Assembly (NCBI RefSeq): GCF_028532485.1
Contig: NZ_CP116942.1
Span: forward strand, 4,402,001 to 4,466,000
DNA: 64,000 nucleotides
Direction of reading: 5' to 3'
Source of the DNA: Iamia majanohamensis
GTDB taxonomy: Bacteria; Actinomycetota; Acidimicrobiia; Acidimicrobiales; Iamiaceae
Shown: positions 6,006-63,261 of the stretch, piece after piece
Position numbering within the stretch: position 1 is the first letter of the stretch
Layout of the letters: each line of letters opens with the position of its first letter
The notes under the pieces: model-generated
Told to the model about the DNA's origin: nothing
The model's database searches: none
Seen by the model: the letters and a program-made list of their open reading frames with translations, nothing else
Translations under genes and position numbers: made by a program

Positions 6006-6875
6006 GTGAAGCTGGGCATGATCTTCGCCAACACCATGACCTTCGCCGGGCGCGAAGGGCTCGTCGACCTGGCCCGGGGGGCGGAGGAGGCCGGGTTCGA
6101 GTCGCTGTGGACCGTGGAGCACGTCATCTACCCCGACGGCTACGGCAGCTCCTACCCCTACGACGCCTCCGGGAAGATGGCCATGGCGGCCGACACCGAC
6201 CTCCCCGACCCGCTCATCTGGCTCACCTGGGTGGCGGCGGTGACCGAGCGCATCCACCTCGGCACCGGCATCCTCATCCTCCCCCAGCGCAACCCGGTGG
6301 TCCTGGCCAAGGAGCTGGCCACCCTCGACTCGCTGTCGGAGGGGCGCCTGGAGCTGGGCATCGGCGTGGGCTGGCTGGAGGAGGAGTTCGCCGCCCTGGG
6401 CGTGCCGTTCGCCGGCCGGGGGGCGCGCACCGACGAGTACGTCGAGGTCATGCGCACCCTGTGGGACGCCGACCACGCGTCGTTCGAGGGCGAGCACATC
6501 CGGTTCTCCGGCGCCAGCGTCAACCCCAAGCCCACCCGGGGCCGGGTGCCGATCCACATCGGCGGCCACAGCCGCAAGGCGGCGGAGCGGGCCGGACGGC
6601 TGGGCGACGGCTTCTTCCCGGGCAAGGGCGACCTGGCCGAGCTGGTCGACATCACCCGCCAGACGGCGGCGGACTGCGGCCGCGACCCCGACGCCATCGA
6701 GATCACCTCGGGCGACGCCGCGGTGCTGGGCGACGACCCGGTCGGCGCGGTGGAGGAGCTGCGGGCCAAGGGCGTCGACCGGGTGGTGGTGCCGTCGTTC
6801 CTCTTCCTGAAGGACACGGCCGACGCCCTGGCCGGCTTCGGCGAGCGGGTCGTCGCCCCCTGCGCCGACATCTGA
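6006..6875 (+). CDS. LLM class F420-dependent oxidoreductase
   Basis: The 289-residue protein has the luciferase-like monooxygenase TIM barrel: MKLGMIFAN at the first strand, AEEAGFESLWTVEH, a LGTGILILPQRNPVVLAKELATLD block and the GVGWLEEEF/PIHIGGHS phosphate-binding region. Members in actinobacteria use coenzyme F420 or FMN; the TIGR03619-type look suggests F420, which is inference. The GTG start has a strong AGGAGG eight bases upstream, and a TAGGGT -10 box at 5947-5952 would give a leader of about 47 bases, so this is one of the leadered genes in the window. Confidence 0.86.
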   Translation: MKLGMIFANTMTFAGREGLVDLARGAEEAGFESLWTVEHVIYPDGYGSSYPYDASGKMAMAADTDLPDPLIWLTWVAAVTERIHLGTGILILPQRNPVVLAKELATLDSLSEGRLELGIGVGWLEEEFAALGVPFAGRGARTDEYVEVMRTLWDADHASFEGEHIRFSGASVNPKPTRGRVPIHIGGHSRKAAERAGRLGDGFFPGKGDLAELVDITRQTAADCGRDPDAIEITSGDAAVLGDDPVGAVEELRAKGVDRVVVPSFLFLKDTADALAGFGERVVAPCADI

Positions 6876-6917
6876 GCGGCGCCCGGTGCCGACGACCCCG
6901 CCGGACCCGGGCGGCCG

Positions 6918-6923
6918 TAGGCT
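6918..6923 (+). promoter_or_regulatory. -10 box TAGGCT, leaderless start at 6931 (pirin)
   Basis: Seven bases separate the hexamer from the GTG; this decides the start over GTG 6886. Confidence 0.6.
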
Positions 6924-6930
6924 CGCGCCG

Positions 6931-7851
6931 GTGAGCGGCCCGGTGCGCAGCGAGGACCTCAGCCCCGACCCCGAGGCGCCGCCCGACGAGCCCGAGGTCG
7001 AGGTCACCCCCAGCCGGGAGGCCACCATCGGGGAGCTCACGGTGCGGCGGGCCCTCCCTCACCGGGCCCGGCGCACCGTCGGGGCCTGGTGCTTCGTCGA
7101 CCACATGGGCCCCACCGAGGGCGGGCTCGACATCGGCCCCCACCCCCACATCGGCCTCCAGACCGTCACCTGGCTGCTGTCGGGCGAGGTGCTCCACACC
7201 GACAGCCTGGGCACCGAGCAGCCCATCCGCCCCGGCCAGCTCAACCTCATGACCGCGGGCCACGGCATCGCCCACGCCGAGGACGGCCGGCACGGCCCCT
7301 ACCACGGGGCCCAGCTGTGGGTGGCCCAGCCCGAGGCCACCCGGCACGGGCCGCCCGCCTTCGCGCACCACGCCGAGCTCCCCCGGGTCGACGTCGGGGC
7401 CGCCGTCGCCACCGTGCTGGTCGGCACCCTGGCCGGCGCCACCTCCCCGGCCCGCACCGACACCCCCCTGGTGGGGGCCGAGCTCGCCCTCCGACCGGGG
7501 ACCACCGAGGTCGGCCTCGACCCCTCCTTCGAGCACGCCGTGGTGGTCCTCGAGGGCCGGGCCACGGTGGCCGGCGTCGAGGTCACCCCCGGGCACCTCG
7601 CCCACCTCGGGCTCGGGCGCGACGAGGTCGCGCTGCACGCCGACGACGACGCCCGGCTGCTCCTCCTCGGCGGCGAGCCCTTCGAGGCCACCCCGCTCAT
7701 GTGGTGGAACTACGTGGCCCGCACCCCCGACGAGGTGCAGCAGGCCCACGACGACTGGGAGGCCGGCTCCGACCGCTTCGGCACCGTCCCCACCCCGCTG
7801 CCCCGGGTCCCGTCCCAGCCCCCGATCGGCCTCCGCCGCCCCCCTGGCTGA
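6931..7851 (+). CDS. pirin family protein
   Basis: A 306-residue bicupin. The N-terminal pirin domain carries the metal ligands HPHIG (His71, His73) and HAED (His115, Glu117), and PGQLNLMTAGHGIAH is the family signature. The C-terminal cupin (about 165-280) matches the pirin C-terminal domain. Bacterial pirins bind Fe or Mn and have been linked to quercetin dioxygenase activity or to modulation of central metabolism. GTG 6931 is preferred over GTG 6886 because TAGGCT lies 7 bases before it. The stop is followed at once by a run of 24 cytosines. Confidence 0.86.
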   Translation: MSGPVRSEDLSPDPEAPPDEPEVEVTPSREATIGELTVRRALPHRARRTVGAWCFVDHMGPTEGGLDIGPHPHIGLQTVTWLLSGEVLHTDSLGTEQPIRPGQLNLMTAGHGIAHAEDGRHGPYHGAQLWVAQPEATRHGPPAFAHHAELPRVDVGAAVATVLVGTLAGATSPARTDTPLVGAELALRPGTTEVGLDPSFEHAVVVLEGRATVAGVEVTPGHLAHLGLGRDEVALHADDDARLLLLGGEPFEATPLMWWNYVARTPDEVQQAHDDWEAGSDRFGTVPTPLPRVPSQPPIGLRRPPG

Positions 7852-7855
7852 CGAG

Positions 7856-7879
7856 CCCCCCCCCCCCCCCCCCCCCCCC
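7856..7879. repeat. homopolymer tract of 24 cytosines
   Basis: Twenty-four consecutive C residues lie four bases after the pirin stop codon and just before a twin stem-loop. No other homopolymer in the window approaches this length. Such tracts slip during replication and are also prone to sequencing or assembly error, so the exact length is uncertain. Confidence 0.9.
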
Positions 7880-7914
7880 GGAGCCCTCGGGCCCCGGGGC
7901 GAGCCCTCGGACCC

Positions 7915-8043
7915 GCCGAACCAGAGACCAGACGCGTCGTGGGAGCGGCGCGTCTGGTCGCTGGTTGCCCGGGGGTCGGTGGCGGCCGCCGAACCAGAGA
8001 CCGATCGCGTCGTGGGAGCAGCGCGTCTGGTCGCTGGTTGCCG
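7915..8043. repeat. twin stem-loop A
   Basis: Two direct copies of a hairpin unit, 73 bp apart. In copy 1, AACCAG (7919-7924) plus GACCAGACGCG (7926-7936) pair with CGCGTCTGGTC (7949-7959) plus CTGGTT (7961-7966), giving 17 pairs with one mismatch around a 12-base loop. Copy 2 (7992-8039) keeps the right arm exactly and has a few changes in the left arm. Both copies start with CCGAACC. They sit between two genes on the plus strand, so terminator function alone is not obvious. Confidence 0.85.
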
Positions 8044-8066
8044 GGCGAGGGGGGCGGTGGCGGCCG

Positions 8067-8072
8067 TAGCGT
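8067..8072 (+). promoter_or_regulatory. -10 box TAGCGT, leaderless start at 8080 (DUF2277)
   Basis: Seven bases separate the hexamer from the ATG. Confidence 0.6.
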
Positions 8073-8079
8073 GGACGGC

Positions 8080-8361
8080 ATGTGCCGCAACATCACCACC
8101 CTGCGAGGCCTCGAGCCGCCGGCGACGGCCGAGGAGGTCGACGCCGCCGCCCTCCAGTACGTCCGGAAGGTGAGCGGGGTGCGGGCCCCGTCGGCCGCCA
8201 CCCAGGAGGCCTTCGACGAGGCCGTCCGGGCCGTCGCCGCCGCCACCACCGAGCTGCTGGGCGACCTCCCGCCCCGCAAGCAGCCGCCCCCCACCGTCCC
8301 GCCCCTGCGCCGACCCGAGGTGCGGGCCCGCATGGCGAGGGCCCAGGGCCGGGCCCAGTAG
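8080..8361 (+). CDS. DUF2277 family protein
   Basis: A 93-residue protein beginning MCRNITTLRGLEPPAT, the diagnostic N-terminus of the DUF2277 family, followed by an AALQYVRKVSG helix. The function is unknown; the conserved Cys2 is a family feature. ATG 8080 is preceded at 7 bases by TAGCGT (8067-8072), so translation probably starts at the very 5' end of the transcript. Confidence 0.88.
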   Translation: MCRNITTLRGLEPPATAEEVDAAALQYVRKVSGVRAPSAATQEAFDEAVRAVAAATTELLGDLPPRKQPPPTVPPLRRPEVRARMARAQGRAQ

Positions 8362-8421
8362 CCCACCCGGGACCGCCGCCGGTCGCCCCGGCTGCCGCCG
8401 CGCCGGAACGGCCACCCCCGG

Positions 8422-8458
8422 GGGCGCCTGGCGCCCACCCGCGCCGCCGCTCCGGCGC
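8422..8458. terminator. candidate bidirectional terminator hairpins
   Basis: GGGCGCC (8422-8428) and GGCGCCC (8430-8436) form one inverted repeat, and GCGCCG (8441-8446) with CGGCGC (8453-8458) forms a second, between two convergent genes. There is no T run, as is usual in such GC-rich genomes. Confidence 0.45.
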
Positions 8459-8460
8459 GG

Positions 8461-9738
8461 TCAGACGGCGATGAGGACGGCGGGGACGAGGCAGAGGGCG
8501 GCGGCGAAGCCGGCCAGGCGGACGTTGGAGGCGAGGATGCGGCGGGCCACGCCGAGGAGCACCCGGCGCAGCAGCGGGTAGGCGGTCACCAGCAGGAAGA
8601 CCGTCCATGCCGAGACGACGAGGGTCACCGCCACCACCACCCGCACGCCGTCCTGGTTGCCGAGCAGGATGGCGGCCACGAGGGTGTCGGCCAGGGTCGT
8701 GATGTTGGCCCCGGCGATGTAGGGCAGCGTGTTGGCCCGGCGCAGGTGGCCCTTGGCCACCAGGGGCACCAGCAGGGTGAGCGACACCGACACCGACAGG
8801 GTGAGCAGGGTGACCAGGCAGCCCACCGCGAACATGGGCCACACCCGCCCGTACCAGCCCTCGTCGCCGTCGCGGAGCCGGTCGGGGTGGACGGCGGGCA
8901 GCACCCGGTCGATGCAGGAGAAGCCGAGGAGCAGCAGGCCCAGGCCGATGGGGAAGAGGGCCCAGCCCGGCGCCACCCGCTCGACCAGGTCGACCAGGCC
9001 CCCGAAGGCGGCGTCGGTGGCGGAGGTGAGGCCGGGGGACGTGCCGATGTCGACGCCGTCGAAGGTGCCGCGGGAGAGCAGGACGTAGCCCACCAGCGCG
9101 CCCGGGACGTAGACGACCATCGTCATCAGCAGCGAGAGGACACCGATCGACACCGGGGCGCGGGCCCGGCCCTGGCCCTTGTGGCGCACGGCGTAGACGA
9201 CCCCGACCACCAGGACCACGAAGGCGGCGCCCAGGCGGGACCCGGTGAGCATGGTGAAGGCCTGGGCCCGGTCGATGGCGCCGCCGTCGAGCAGGGTGAG
9301 GGCGGAGGCGGCCACCGGCGACCCCGACAGCACCAGGCAGGAGCCGAGCCAGCCCAGGCCGAGGGTGCTGAGCGCGTTGTCGGTGAAGACCGAGCCCTGG
9401 AGCGAGGGGATGAGGGCGGTGGCCCCCTCCTTCATGAGGCCCAGGGCGGTGACGAAGAGGGCCAGGCCGGCGACCCCGTAGGCGATCCGGGCCGGGAGGG
9501 GGCGGGGCGGGGGCTCCTCGTCGGGGACGAGGATGTCCTCGTCGGGCAGCTCCCGCCCGGCGACGTGGGCCAGGTGCGCGGGGAGGTCGCGGGGCGCGCC
9601 CCGGGGGTGAGGGCCGGCGTCGGGGGCCTCGCCCGCCGGCGCGCCGGCGGGGTGGGTCAGCGCCGCCCCCGCGGCTGCGGCCTCGGGGCGGGGGTCGCGC
9701 CCGGGCCCGGGCGTCTCCCCGACCTCCATGTCGGTCAT
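8461..9738 (-). CDS. Na/Pi-cotransporter II-like membrane protein
   Basis: The 425-residue protein has about eight hydrophobic helices and two related inverted segments typical of the PF02690 Na+/phosphate symporter fold: SPVAASALTLLDGGAIDRAQ near 110-145 and SLTLLVPLVAKGHL...PYIAGANITT near 310-345. The first 60 residues are a hydrophilic Pro/Asp-rich cytoplasmic tail. The expected role is sodium-coupled uptake of phosphate or a related anion, but the usual QSSSA motifs are altered, so the substrate is open. ATG 9738 follows an operator-like CTACC/GGTAG inverted repeat. Confidence 0.75.
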   Translation of the reverse strand: MTDMEVGETPGPGRDPRPEAAAAGAALTHPAGAPAGEAPDAGPHPRGAPRDLPAHLAHVAGRELPDEDILVPDEEPPPRPLPARIAYGVAGLALFVTALGLMKEGATALIPSLQGSVFTDNALSTLGLGWLGSCLVLSGSPVAASALTLLDGGAIDRAQAFTMLTGSRLGAAFVVLVVGVVYAVRHKGQGRARAPVSIGVLSLLMTMVVYVPGALVGYVLLSRGTFDGVDIGTSPGLTSATDAAFGGLVDLVERVAPGWALFPIGLGLLLLGFSCIDRVLPAVHPDRLRDGDEGWYGRVWPMFAVGCLVTLLTLSVSVSLTLLVPLVAKGHLRRANTLPYIAGANITTLADTLVAAILLGNQDGVRVVVAVTLVVSAWTVFLLVTAYPLLRRVLLGVARRILASNVRLAGFAAALCLVPAVLIAV

Positions 9739-24486: not shown

Positions 24487-24569
24487 CCTCCGCCCCCATC
24501 CCGACCCACCGGAGCTGCGGTGGTCCCGGCCGCCACGCGCCCACCACGGGTGCCGTTTCCACGACGCCG

Positions 24570-25439: not shown

Positions 25440-25512
25440 GGCCGGCAGGTTCTCGTCTCCCCCGACGACCGGTCAACCGGTTTCGGCCGGCGCGCCCCGT
25501 CGGCACGCCACC

Positions 25513-25645
25513 CCGACCGACGCCGAACGCCGGTGCTCCTGGGCGCCCCGCGCCCAGGAGGGTGACCGTTCCCACCCACACCCCCGACCGACGCCGAACG
25601 GCGGTGACCTCGGGCGCGATGCGCCCACCAGGGTGGCCGTTCCCG
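25513..25645. repeat. twin stem-loop B
   Basis: Two direct copies starting CCGACCGACGCCGAACG, 71 bp apart. Copy 1 has a perfect 11-bp stem, CTCCTGGGCGC (25536-25546) with GCGCCCAGGAG (25550-25560) around CCC. Copy 2 has GGGCGC (25612-25617) with GCGCCC (25621-25626) around GAT, and outer arms GAACGGC (25596-25602) with GCCGTTC (25636-25642). It lies between two minus-strand genes. Confidence 0.85.
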
Positions 25646-44074: not shown

Positions 44075-44193
44075 CGAACCTGCGACGCTCGCCAGCGGTC
44101 CTGCTCGACCAGCGTCGCAGGGGACGGACGCCCCCGCCGACGACGACGAACCTGCGACGCTCGCCAGCGGTCCTGCTCGACCGACGTCGCAGG
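44075..44193. repeat. twin stem-loop C
   Basis: Two 47-base direct copies (44075-44121 and 44147-44193), 72 bp apart, differ only in a CAG/CGA triplet. Copy 1 pairs CCTGCGACGCT (44079-44089) with AGCGTCGCAGG (44111-44121), a perfect 11-bp stem with a 21-base loop. Copy 2 keeps nine pairs. Both begin CGAACC. The pair lies between convergent genes. Confidence 0.88.
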
Positions 44194-50580: not shown

Positions 50581-50697
50581 CCTGGGTGCTGCGCGCGCCC
50601 GCCAGGGCGCTCCGGGCACTCAGGACCCCGCGGCGCCGGTCGGACCACCCCTCGGCGTGCTGGGCGCGCCCCGTAGGGCGCTCCTGGCACTCAGGAG
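50581..50697. repeat. twin stem-loop D
   Basis: Two hairpins with centres 71 bp apart. Copy 1 pairs CCTGGGTGC (50581-50589) with GCACTCAGG (50616-50624) and GCGCCC (50595-50600) with GGGCGC (50605-50610). Copy 2 pairs GTGC (50657-50660) with GCAC (50687-50690) and GCGCCC (50666-50671) with GGGCGC (50676-50681). The right-hand part GGCACTCAGGA is shared. It lies between divergent genes, so it cannot be a simple terminator. Unlike the others it lacks a CGAAC lead. Confidence 0.82.
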
Positions 50698-53879: not shown

Positions 53880-55586
53880 TCAGGCCGGGTCGGGCACCGG
53901 CTGCGGGGGAGGCGGGCCGACGTAGCGGGCCGACGGGCGGATGATGCGGTTGTCGGTGGCCTGCTCGAGGACGTTGGCGCACCAGCCGATGACCCGGCTC
54001 ACCGAGAAGGTGGGGGTGAACAGCGCCGGGGGCAGGCCGGCCGCCTCCATCACCACCCCCGCGTAGTACTCGACGTTGGCGTAGAGCTCCCGGCCCGGCT
54101 TCAGCTCGGCGAGGGTGTCGACGATCAGGCGCTCGACGGCCACGGCCATGTCGACCCGGGCGCCGCCGAGGCCCTGGGCCACCTCCCGGAGCAGCACGGA
54201 CCGGGGGTCGTCGGTGCGGTAGACGGCGTGGCCGAAGCCCATGATCCGCTCGCCGCGCTCGACCGCACCCCGGATGTGGGCCGCGGCCCGGTCGGGGGAC
54301 CCGATGGCGTCGAGCAGGTCGAGGGCCCGGCTGGGGGCCCCGCCGTGCAACGGGCCCGACAGGGCGCCGAGGGCACCGACGACCGCGGCGCCCAGGTCGG
54401 CGCCGGTGGAGGCGATGACCCGGGCCGTGAACGTGGAGGCGTTGAAGCCGTGGTCGACGGTGAGCACCAGGTACTGCTCGACGGCCCGGGCCGCCTCGGG
54501 CGTGGGCGCGGTGCCGTGGACCATCCAGAGGTAGTTGGCCGCGTGGCCCAGGTCCGGGCGCGGCGCCACCGGCTCGAGGCCGGCGGCCAGGCGGTGGAGG
54601 GCGGCGACGACGGTGGGGGTGACGGCGGCGAGGCGCACCGCGTGCGCCCGCAGGGCGGCGGCGTCGACGTCGTAGGTGGGTCGGAAGCGCTCGGCCGCAG
54701 CGACCGCGGAGAGCACGGTGCGCAGGCCGTCGAGCGGGCCCGTGCCCGAGGCCCGGGCGGCCACGTCGCGCACCACGTCCTCGATCCCGTCGGGCAGCGC
54801 CCGGGCGGCCGCCACCTCGGCCGCGAACGCAGCGCGGGCCTCCCCCTCGGGCAGGGTCCCGTCGAAGAGGAGCGCCCACACGTCCTCCAGGCTCCGCCTC
54901 TCGGCCAGCTCGACCCCGGAGTGCTGGCGGTAGTGGAAGAAGCCCTCCTGGCCCCGGACGTCACCGACCTCGGTCTCGGTCACCACGACGCCGTGAAGTC
55001 CACGCGGGACATCCGGTACGACCGCTCGATCTCCTCGGCTGGCGCCTCGGAGACCACCAACCGTCCCGTCCGCTCCTGGTGCCTCCTTCGTCGGCACCGG
55101 GCCGCTCGGGCCCCGGTCTCGGCTGGCGCCTCGACCTCTCAGCCCGGTGGAGACCCCGGTCCAGACCTCGCCGGCGGGACGGATGCTGGCCACCCGCATG
55201 AGGTCGCGCATGGAGACGATGCCGACCAGGTCCTCCCCGTCGACCACCGGGAGGTGGCGGTAGCCGTGGTCGGCCAGGCGGACCAGGGCCTCGTCGATCG
55301 GGGTGCCCGGCGCAGCCAGGTCGGGGGCCGCGGTCATCCAGCGCGCCACCGGGTCCGCCTCCGGGTCGGCGTGGGCCTCGGCCGCCCGGACCACGTCGCG
55401 CTCGGTGAGGATCCCGACCGGCGGCCCGTCGTCGGCGACCACCACCACCGACCCGACGCCGGCCACCACCATGGCCCGGGCCGCGGCGGCGAGGGGCTCG
55501 TCGGCCCGGGCCGACACCACCGGTGCGCTCATGAGGTCGGCCACGGTCCGGGTCTGGGGCCGCTCCTGCACTGTCGTCTCGTCCAT
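53880..55586 (-). CDS. CBS-domain/citrate synthase fusion protein
   Basis: A 568-residue fusion. Residues 14-70 and 81-135 are two CBS motifs (TVADLMSAPVVSARADEP; LADHGYRHLPVVDGEDLVGIVSMRDLM), which usually bind adenylates and impose allosteric control. Residues 192-568 are a citrate synthase with His414 in LHGGAP, His453 in MGFGHAVY and Glu506 in YANVEYYAG replacing the usual Asp, as in some actinobacterial enzymes. The linker (about 141-191) is low-complexity, has atypical codons and contains a 16-bp direct repeat. ATG 55586 follows CAAGGT by seven bases, with TTGATC 17 bp further up. Confidence 0.82.
   Translation of the reverse strand: MDETTVQERPQTRTVADLMSAPVVSARADEPLAAAARAMVVAGVGSVVVVADDGPPVGILTERDVVRAAEAHADPEADPVARWMTAAPDLAAPGTPIDEALVRLADHGYRHLPVVDGEDLVGIVSMRDLMRVASIRPAGEVWTGVSTGLRGRGASRDRGPSGPVPTKEAPGADGTVGGLRGASRGDRAVVPDVPRGLHGVVVTETEVGDVRGQEGFFHYRQHSGVELAERRSLEDVWALLFDGTLPEGEARAAFAAEVAAARALPDGIEDVVRDVAARASGTGPLDGLRTVLSAVAAAERFRPTYDVDAAALRAHAVRLAAVTPTVVAALHRLAAGLEPVAPRPDLGHAANYLWMVHGTAPTPEAARAVEQYLVLTVDHGFNASTFTARVIASTGADLGAAVVGALGALSGPLHGGAPSRALDLLDAIGSPDRAAAHIRGAVERGERIMGFGHAVYRTDDPRSVLLREVAQGLGGARVDMAVAVERLIVDTLAELKPGRELYANVEYYAGVVMEAAGLPPALFTPTFSVSRVIGWCANVLEQATDNRIIRPSARYVGPPPPQPVPDPA
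55034..55133. repeat. 16-bp direct repeat in the CBS-citrate synthase linker
   Basis: CTCGGCTGGCGCCTCG occurs at 55034-55049 and 55118-55133, 84 bp apart and in the same codon phase. Between them lies a perfect 6-bp hairpin GGTGCC/GGCACC with a 9-base loop. The repeat delimits the stretch in which codon bias of the fusion gene is lost. Confidence 0.7.
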
Positions 55587-55654
55587 GCCGCCGACCTTGA
55601 CACCGACCCCGACATTGATCAACCTTGAGCCGTGATCAACGTCGGGCGCGCAGC
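55587..55654. promoter_or_regulatory. shared divergent promoter/operator of the two citrate synthase fusions
   Basis: The palindrome TTGATCAA (55615-55622) can act as -35 on both strands: leftward TTGATC, 17 bp, CAAGGT, 7 bp, ATG 55586; rightward TTGATC (55615-55620), 16 bp, CAACGT (55637-55642), then GTG 55655. TGATCAAC is repeated at 55616-55623 and 55633-55640. The N-terminal HTH of the right-hand gene product is the obvious candidate to bind here. Confidence 0.65.
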
Positions 55655-56902
55655 GTGAGCACCGACGACCTCCGCCTCACCACCGCGGAGGCCGCCGACC
55701 GGCTGGGCGTGAAGCCCGAGACCCTCTACGCCTACGTCAGCCGGGGCCTCATCGAACGGCGGCGCACGCCCGGCGGACCCAGCACCTTCGCGGCGCGCGA
55801 CGTCGAGCGCCTGGTGCGGGCCGGGCGCCGGACCCGGTCGCTGCCCCCGCTGGTGTTCCCCTCGTCGCTCACCCTGATCGCCGACGGGCGCTACGCGTAC
55901 CGGGGCGTCGACGCCGTCGCCGCGTCGCGGGCCCACCGCTTCGAGGAGGTGGCCGAGTGGCTGTGGCGGGGGAGCTGGCCCGACGAGGTGCGCTGGCCCT
56001 TCGACGCCGCCGCCCTCGACGACGTCCTCGCGGCCCAGGCCGCGGCCAGCGTCGAGTGCCTCCCCCTCGACCGCTACCGGATCATCGCCGCGGTGGCGGC
56101 CGCGGCCGACCCCGTGCGCCACCGCACCGAGCCCGACGTGGTCGTGCCCGCGGCCCGGCGCCTCCTGCGGCTCCTGGTCCACGGCCTGCCGCGCGCCGAC
56201 GGGCGCGAGGCGCGACGGGTCGAGCCGGCCCGGTCGATGGCCGAGGTCCTGTGGACCCGGCTCACCACCACCCCCCGGACCCCGGCGCGGGTCGGCCTGC
56301 TCGACGCCGCCCTGGTGCTGCTGGCCGACCACGAGCTGCCCAGCTCCACCCTGGCGGTGCGCACCGCGGCCATGGTGCGGGCCGACGTCTACGAGGTGGT
56401 GGGCACCGGGCTCAGCGTGTGCGGGGGGCTGCGCCACGGCGGAGCCTCGCTCGGGGTCGAGGCCCTGCTGCACGAGGCCGCCCGCGTCGGCCCGGAGCGG
56501 GCCCTGGCCGACCGCCTCGACCGGGGCGACCGCATCCCCGGCTTCGGCCACCCCCTCTACCCCGACGGCGACCCCCGGGCGCCGGTGCTGCTCGACGGGC
56601 TCGACGCCCTCGACCTCCCGGCGGAGCGGGTCTCGGTCGTCCGGGCCGTGGTCGACGGGACCACCGCCCGCACCGGCCTGGCCCCCAACGTGGACGCCGC
56701 CCTCGCGGCGCTCTCGTACGCGGCGGCGATGGCCCCCGGCGCGGGCGAGGCCACCTTCGCGCTGGCCCGCACCGCGGGCTGGGTGGCCCACGCCCTCGAG
56801 CAGTACGAGACCCCCACCTTCATGCGCACCCGGGTCGACTACGTCGGCCCTCGCGTCGACGACGTCGGCCCCCCGGTGGAGGACATCGGCCCGCCCCGGT
56901 GA
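55655..56902 (+). CDS. HTH/citrate synthase fusion protein
   Basis: A 415-residue protein. Residues about 7-54 form a MerR/excisionase-like helix-turn-helix (LTTAEAADRLGVKPETLYAYVSRGLIERRRTPGG with a wing into FAARDVERLV). The rest is a short citrate synthase with His261 in LRHGGAS, His299 in GFGHPLYP and Asp347 in APNVDAAL, so the catalytic residues are retained. Members with an N-terminal HTH may be enzymes, metabolite-sensing regulators, or both. It is divergent from the CBS-citrate synthase, with a shared operator. GTG 55655 is taken as start; TTG 55625 would run through the operator. Confidence 0.84.
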   Translation: MSTDDLRLTTAEAADRLGVKPETLYAYVSRGLIERRRTPGGPSTFAARDVERLVRAGRRTRSLPPLVFPSSLTLIADGRYAYRGVDAVAASRAHRFEEVAEWLWRGSWPDEVRWPFDAAALDDVLAAQAAASVECLPLDRYRIIAAVAAAADPVRHRTEPDVVVPAARRLLRLLVHGLPRADGREARRVEPARSMAEVLWTRLTTTPRTPARVGLLDAALVLLADHELPSSTLAVRTAAMVRADVYEVVGTGLSVCGGLRHGGASLGVEALLHEAARVGPERALADRLDRGDRIPGFGHPLYPDGDPRAPVLLDGLDALDLPAERVSVVRAVVDGTTARTGLAPNVDAALAALSYAAAMAPGAGEATFALARTAGWVAHALEQYETPTFMRTRVDYVGPRVDDVGPPVEDIGPPR

Positions 56903-63121: not shown

Positions 63122-63230
63122 CCCCGAACCGGGACGGGAACCGGTCGCCCCGACGACCACATCCCGGCCCAGGACCAGACCCACCCCGAACCGGGACGGG
63201 GACCGGTCGCCCCCACGACCACATCCCGGC
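63122..63230. repeat. twin repeat E
   Basis: Two direct copies, 62 bp apart, of a unit starting CCCCGAACCGGGACGGG and ending ACCACATCCCGGCCC. Each has CCGGGA (63129-63134; 63191-63196) pairing with TCCCGG (63162-63167; 63224-63229) and an inner GGTCG/CGACC. It lies between convergent genes. Confidence 0.85.
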
Positions 63231-63261
63231 CCGGCTCGGGGCGGGTGGGCGGCGGAGCGCG

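Follow-up and report, generated by a model that had tools for sequence, protein, structure and literature searches.

Twin A, a pair of palindromes, occupies the spacer between a pirin-family gene and a DUF2277 gene in the window studied here, by which we mean the whole 64-kb stretch of DNA that was analysed (bases 4,402,001-4,466,000 of the complete 4.58-Mb genome of an actinobacterium with 75-77% GC, which its named relatives place in the Acidimicrobiia). The genes that border twin A and the palindromic elements of the window are as follows, in window coordinates.

6931-7851, plus strand: pirin-family gene, upstream of twin A
7913-7972, no strand: twin A unit 1, palindrome CGAACCAGAGACCAGACGCG...CGCGTCTGGTCGCTGGTTG, orphan subfamily A
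7986-8045, no strand: twin A unit 2, a direct copy of unit 1 at a step of 73 bp, 92% identical
8071-8361, plus strand: DUF2277 gene, downstream of twin A
8405-8462, no strand: single palindrome of subfamily B, 3' of the DUF2277 gene
24500-24560, no strand: single palindrome of subfamily B in a convergent spacer
25511-25644, no strand: twin B, orphan subfamily B, units 25511-25573 and 25582-25644, step 71
44075-44193, no strand: twin C, subfamily C, units 44075-44121 and 44147-44193, step 72
50586-50696, no strand: twin D, orphan, step 71, in a divergent spacer
63122-63232, no strand: twin E, orphan subfamily E, step 62, in a convergent spacer

The palindrome of twin A is near-perfect, its arms (7919-7936 and 7949-7966) forming 17 pairs with one mismatch, and the locus is as an earlier note on this DNA had described it: a 17-pair hairpin present twice, 73 bp apart, between two genes of the same strand. 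A run of about 19 C residues (7861-7879) follows the pirin stop codon just 5' of the twin. In a congener, here G002, the pirin ortholog is inverted, with short spacers and neither palindrome nor twin alongside (6006-9738 compared with G002:C1:4862930-4865956). As a query, twin A finds about 30 relatives elsewhere in its own genome, and the exact pattern of A-type arms had 0 matches in the 84,980 other genomes scanned.

A blind offset detector, which scores ungapped self-matches at offsets of 45-120 with no knowledge of the earlier claim, finds exactly five twins in the window, with steps of 73, 71, 72, 71 and 62; these are the same five, with periods of 71-73 bp and one of 62, that had been picked out before. 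It had also been claimed that the copies are alike within a locus and not between loci. The first half stands, but the second does not, as the bodies of A, B, C and E recur genome-wide; they had been taken as non-recurring because the window holds five different subfamilies. An Rfam search of the window gave no match. The window also contains, at 53880-56902, two adjacent and divergent citrate synthase genes, one with N-terminal CBS domains and the other a fusion in which a MerR-like HTH precedes the citrate synthase domain.

To place these elements in their genome we sampled 859 kb of stretches, including the window. The earlier note had named a comparison with shuffled spacers as the test that could refute it. 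First-order shuffles yield no twins, whereas in the real sequence the detector finds 5 in the window, 15 in the evenly spaced stretches (400 kb) and 26 in those that were targeted (395 kb). Their steps are sharply bimodal across the 859 kb, at 61-63 and 70-73 bp, and clustering separates the sampled twins into at least 10 subfamilies (A, B, C, E, F, G, H, I, J and K) and singletons, most subfamilies occurring as single palindromes too. Extrapolation from the 20 evenly spaced stretches (400 kb) gives some 350 units and 90 twins per genome. With genes called by a simple home-made codon model, 114 of 118 placed units are intergenic, and the other four may reflect gaps left by the gene caller. The palindromes lie mostly downstream of genes; convergent spacers are enriched (25 of 73 loci, odds ratio 4.1, p 7e-6) and divergent spacers depleted (6 of 73, odds ratio 0.16, p 9e-7).

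Twins are the commonest array size and not the sole one, since arrays of at least three units occur at the same 61-, 62- or 70-bp step (L071 5630-5745 and L031 18554-18667 in this genome, L077 15195-15396 in G002). A 60-bp tandem array of CAGCGGCAGAGCCGG... units at L031 8510-8710, also in this genome, is unrelated to the palindromes; a similar string lies at L045 1959. Palindromes that are about 98% identical sit in unrelated flanks, which suggests that the palindrome itself is the moving unit. Inside a twin, the flanks are partially similar (about 50% compared with a 31% background over -15 to +10), and this suggests that local duplication of a unit of about 71 bp creates or renews twins. 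Two other readings of the arrays were set aside: one resembling CRISPR (repeat, fixed 23-nt unique spacer, repeat), because each spacer is similar to the sequence flanking its own locus, as tandem duplication would produce, and one based on attC sites and integrons, because by inspection the feet do not match and there are no cassettes.

A search for genes lying between elements of the same subfamily returned a single protein type, three times (twice in this genome and once in the congener), in which an AbiEi_4 winged-HTH domain is joined to a C-terminal DUF559/MTES_1575 domain of the Vsr-type PD-(D/E)XK fold. This genome has eight AbiEi-DUF559 genes. Each of the eight has palindromes of a single subfamily on either side, and the eight subfamilies are all different (C, L, M, K, G, F, H and I). 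Among 738 control genes drawn from this and related genomes, 8 pass the same flank test (about 1%), two of which are AbiEi-DUF559 genes found blind; within this genome alone the contrast is 8/8 against 2/224 other genes, with a chance of about 2e-13 (hypergeometric, our own arithmetic). A cognate gene is present for 22 of the 38 twins of this genome, twin C included (G000:C1:1946016-1946954, L197). The remaining 16, among them A, B, D, E and J, have none in the genome: profile and AbiEi_4 searches for cognates of the orphan subfamilies, that of twin A included, give only the same eight genes and a false match to citrate synthase. Twin A is thus an orphan, putatively assigned to the AbiEi-Vsr system by its shared anatomy, foot and step.

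AbiEi models, those of PADLOC among them, match residues ~3-183 of all eight proteins, with best E values of 5.7e-13 to 5e-30. In profile comparisons the N-terminus is weakly related to AbiEi 6y8q, and the C-terminus to endonuclease 3hrl (6.7e-9), to the homing endonuclease-type 3r3p and, weakly, to Vsr. Invariant D, E and H residues are present in the nuclease domain, and from the sequence we predict the C-terminal domain to be a Vsr-like PD-(D/E)XK nuclease. A different DUF559 architecture is seen at L276 (G002:C1:5032637-5032885), where the match falls in an open frame of 1609 aa to which the AbiEi-Vsr profile gives no match.

The domain content might suggest a role in defence, in which the resident palindromes would mark or titrate a nuclease directed against DNA that either lacks or carries them. 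AbiEi is part of phage-abortive TA systems, PADLOC AbiEi models match the first ~183 residues, and in Caulobacter a Vsr-like DUF559 protein causes DNA damage when its methyltransferase is missing. We regard a defence role as improbable. The ten genes neighbouring the eight loci, compared with Pfam, include no AbiEii (DUF1814) toxin and no other defence protein, one of them having no family match, and searches of phages, viral contigs and plasmids gave no relatives.

The earlier note had seen an undescribed family of paired palindromes with a REP-like layout and diverged bodies. The layout is upheld; the diverged bodies are not, as what is found are discrete repeated subfamilies in direct pairs, with no RAYT. 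There is nevertheless a resemblance to REP, BIME and REPIN elements, as in both cases short extragenic palindromes occur as singles and doublets, in several subfamilies per genome that each flank their own enzyme gene (PMC3116915, PMC3733652); both include orphan families, and for REP elements spread by the enzyme has been inferred in the literature. That these are REP/BIME elements of the classical sort, mobilised by a RAYT transposase, is hardly credible, however, and for this genome that reading is refuted, barring a highly diverged HUH gene. A search for RAYT (Y1_Tnp, HUH; PF01797) gave 0 matches here while control genomes, E. coli among them, were positive, and the enzyme at hand is an AbiEi-Vsr fusion rather than an HUH/Y1 transposase. 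The twins are direct tandem repeats at fixed 62- or 71-bp steps, unlike the inverted doublets of REPINs; alignment shows the direct orientation, which the design of the offset detector also presupposes. Finally, published REP superfamilies carry a GTAG or CGTC tetranucleotide at the foot (PMC3733652), whereas the units here, of about 50 bp, have GTTC/GAAC and resemble operators in double-stranded DNA rather than single-stranded hairpins.

The congener carries palindrome subfamilies of its own, and these are informative about anatomy. In one of them a 48-bp palindrome, GTTCTGTCGCG-N26-CGCGACAGAAC, is present at 18 loci, 14 of which are twins with steps of exactly 71 in 12 cases and 70 in two. 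The 11-bp arms of these units (11-N26-11) are near-invariant on both sides and the interior is variable, with no stem covariation above shuffles in the family, which argues for a dimeric site in double-stranded DNA and not for an RNA hairpin selected for its structure. The CGAAC start to which attention had been drawn corresponds to a GTTC/GAAC in the foot, found in 22 of the 24 palindromes that flank nuclease genes as opposed to 13% of random positions.

These features also bear on the idea that the elements are bidirectional terminators or 3'-end stabilisers whose link to the nuclease genes is incidental. The stem-loops are very stable (about -25 to -45 kcal/mol) and are found chiefly behind stop codons and in spacers between convergent genes, but there is no U tract, the stem of the G002 family shows no covariation above shuffles while the arm sequence is invariant, and twins are present in divergent spacers too, as the earlier note had remarked in holding them to be more than terminators. 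The matching of subfamilies to genes would also be left unexplained, and we judge this explanation to be very unlikely.

A closer parallel is offered by the operators of AbiEi proteins. The site bound by Streptococcus agalactiae AbiEi is an 11-N27-11 palindrome, which in its extended form comprises two half-sites of 23 bp separated by 3 bp (PMC3985639), and Mycobacterium tuberculosis Rv2827c binds tandem palindromes upstream of its gene (23-13-23, 4 bp, 23-13-23) at a step of ~63 bp (PMC7319586). Palindromes close to this ~49-bp type with ~11-bp arms, in G002 the 48-bp units of the form 11-N26-11, are likewise present in front of AbiEi-domain genes. Because the published operators have the same layout, we read the twins as probable dispersed double operators, and the palindromes are very probably sites of the AbiEi-Vsr proteins. 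The differences from the known operators are that the sites here also lie downstream of the gene and in tens of places elsewhere; and from the type IV TA systems of AbiEi, that no AbiEii toxin gene is among the tested neighbours and that the protein has an extra Vsr-like nuclease domain.

Binding need not imply mobility, and the AbiEi-Vsr proteins might instead be regulators or nucleoid proteins in a static regulatory or chromosome-organising network, with sites spread by ordinary recombination and the nuclease uninvolved in that spread. AbiEi proteins are indeed autoregulators that bind paired inverted repeats (PMC3985639, PMC7319586), and steps of ~62 and ~71 bp are close to whole helical turns, as expected for cooperative binding. 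However, the active-site residues of the nuclease are conserved, the depletion of divergent spacers leaves just six loci in promoter-only positions while convergent spacers are enriched, and no other genome scanned contains the exact A-type arms; a static network therefore seems to us unlikely, if less so than the terminator or defence explanations.

The link between AbiEi-Vsr genes and palindromes extends well beyond this genome. The 600 kb sampled from G002 contain 18 clear twins, every one of which matches a palindrome adjacent to one of that genome's own AbiEi-Vsr genes, and the three tandem pairs unmatched to gene-flanking palindromes are all weak. Of 27 genes from relatives within the order, 14 satisfy the shared-flank test in its strict form and 17 by score alone. 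AbiEi-DUF559 homologs are present in 121 of 197 sampled actinobacterial genomes, often several in each, and across Actinomycetota a flanking repeat is common to both sides of 19 of 38 genes, compared with 0 of 690 mismatched flank pairs; some of the 19 genes that fail have a one-sided palindrome or low scores. Three gene-flanking palindromes were tested in Desertimonas flava SYSU D60003. Two of them are dispersed, the first to about 30 places and the second to six loci with tandem steps of 60-65 bp, and the third exists only as its two gene-flanking copies. Cellulomonas triticagri has palindromes on both sides of an AbiEi-DUF559 gene.

The association of gene and palindrome, with one subfamily per gene, is established here, as are the dispersal of the palindromes, their fixed steps, their 3' bias and their presence or absence between congeners. 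We infer binding, cutting and copying by the AbiEi-Vsr proteins, and the reading we favour, with reasonable though far from complete confidence, is that twins are tandem double binding sites of these fusions, dispersed as non-autonomous REP-like repeats and copied by the nuclease. Each palindrome of ~48-52 bp would comprise two ~23-bp half-sites, with two AbiEi-type winged-HTH modules binding them as double-stranded DNA, so that a twin would bind four. Each nuclease gene keeps sites on both sides, the upstream ones lying where an autoregulatory operator would sit, and the protein would repress itself through that upstream pair; the same sites are scattered mainly downstream of other genes. Most likely, the Vsr-like domain would nick or cut at or beside bound sites, and repair would then copy palindromes into new spacers and duplicate them in 62- or 71-bp steps. 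Families whose gene was lost, such as A, would persist as orphans. Whether the nuclease itself drives the spread seems to us evenly balanced. The broadest form of the proposal, a new kind of miniature mobile DNA, common across Actinomycetota, in which paired AbiEi-type operators are spread by their own AbiEi-Vsr nuclease, regulating itself and cutting and copying the same sites, is put forward more tentatively, as falling a little short of that balance. If it is true, operator, target and mobile unit are one sequence.

Some other families invite comparison. The C-terminal nuclease domain is homologous to that of Vsr-like/EDxHD homing endonucleases (I-Bth0305I type, PDB 3r3p) and of DUF559 proteins such as Caulobacter VsrA, but here it is joined to a complete AbiEi module, and the gene has dispersed palindromes on either side and no intron. 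Like MITEs, the palindromes are small, dispersed, non-autonomous and intergenic; unlike them, each unit is a full palindrome, with no linked DDE/HUH transposase and no target-site duplication detected, there being no direct-repeat signal above shuffled pairs around 18 G002 elements. The system fails a defining test of every family considered and has no enzyme homologous to that of REP systems; if the REP-like layout were weighted more heavily, it could be classed as a variant of the REP kind. The paired hairpins, most families of which also bracket a nuclease gene, point to an undescribed REP-like repeat system run by an unrelated enzyme, and suggest that a REP-like mode of life has arisen twice, the second time around a nuclease of separate origin. 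We know of no report of dispersed AbiEi operators, and a search of open-access full text, with subscription literature outside its reach, returned no paper tying DUF559, MTES_1575 or AbiEi to dispersed palindromes.

AbiEi-DUF559 proteins are a hitherto unstudied type of DNA-binding nuclease, which Pfam and PADLOC read simply as antitoxins or proteins of unknown function. The link to gene-specific, dispersed, paired palindromes gives these fusions a candidate DNA target and predicts autoregulation, and the existence of several orthogonal protein-site pairs per genome makes the specificity and coevolution of DNA recognition directly testable. Protein similarity already tracks palindrome similarity (Mantel r 0.34, p 0.0002, 24 genes). 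At the same time, orthologs at what is apparently the same place can have very different palindromes, as with gene M of this genome, beside recG, and L272 of G002, and recognition must therefore change fast.
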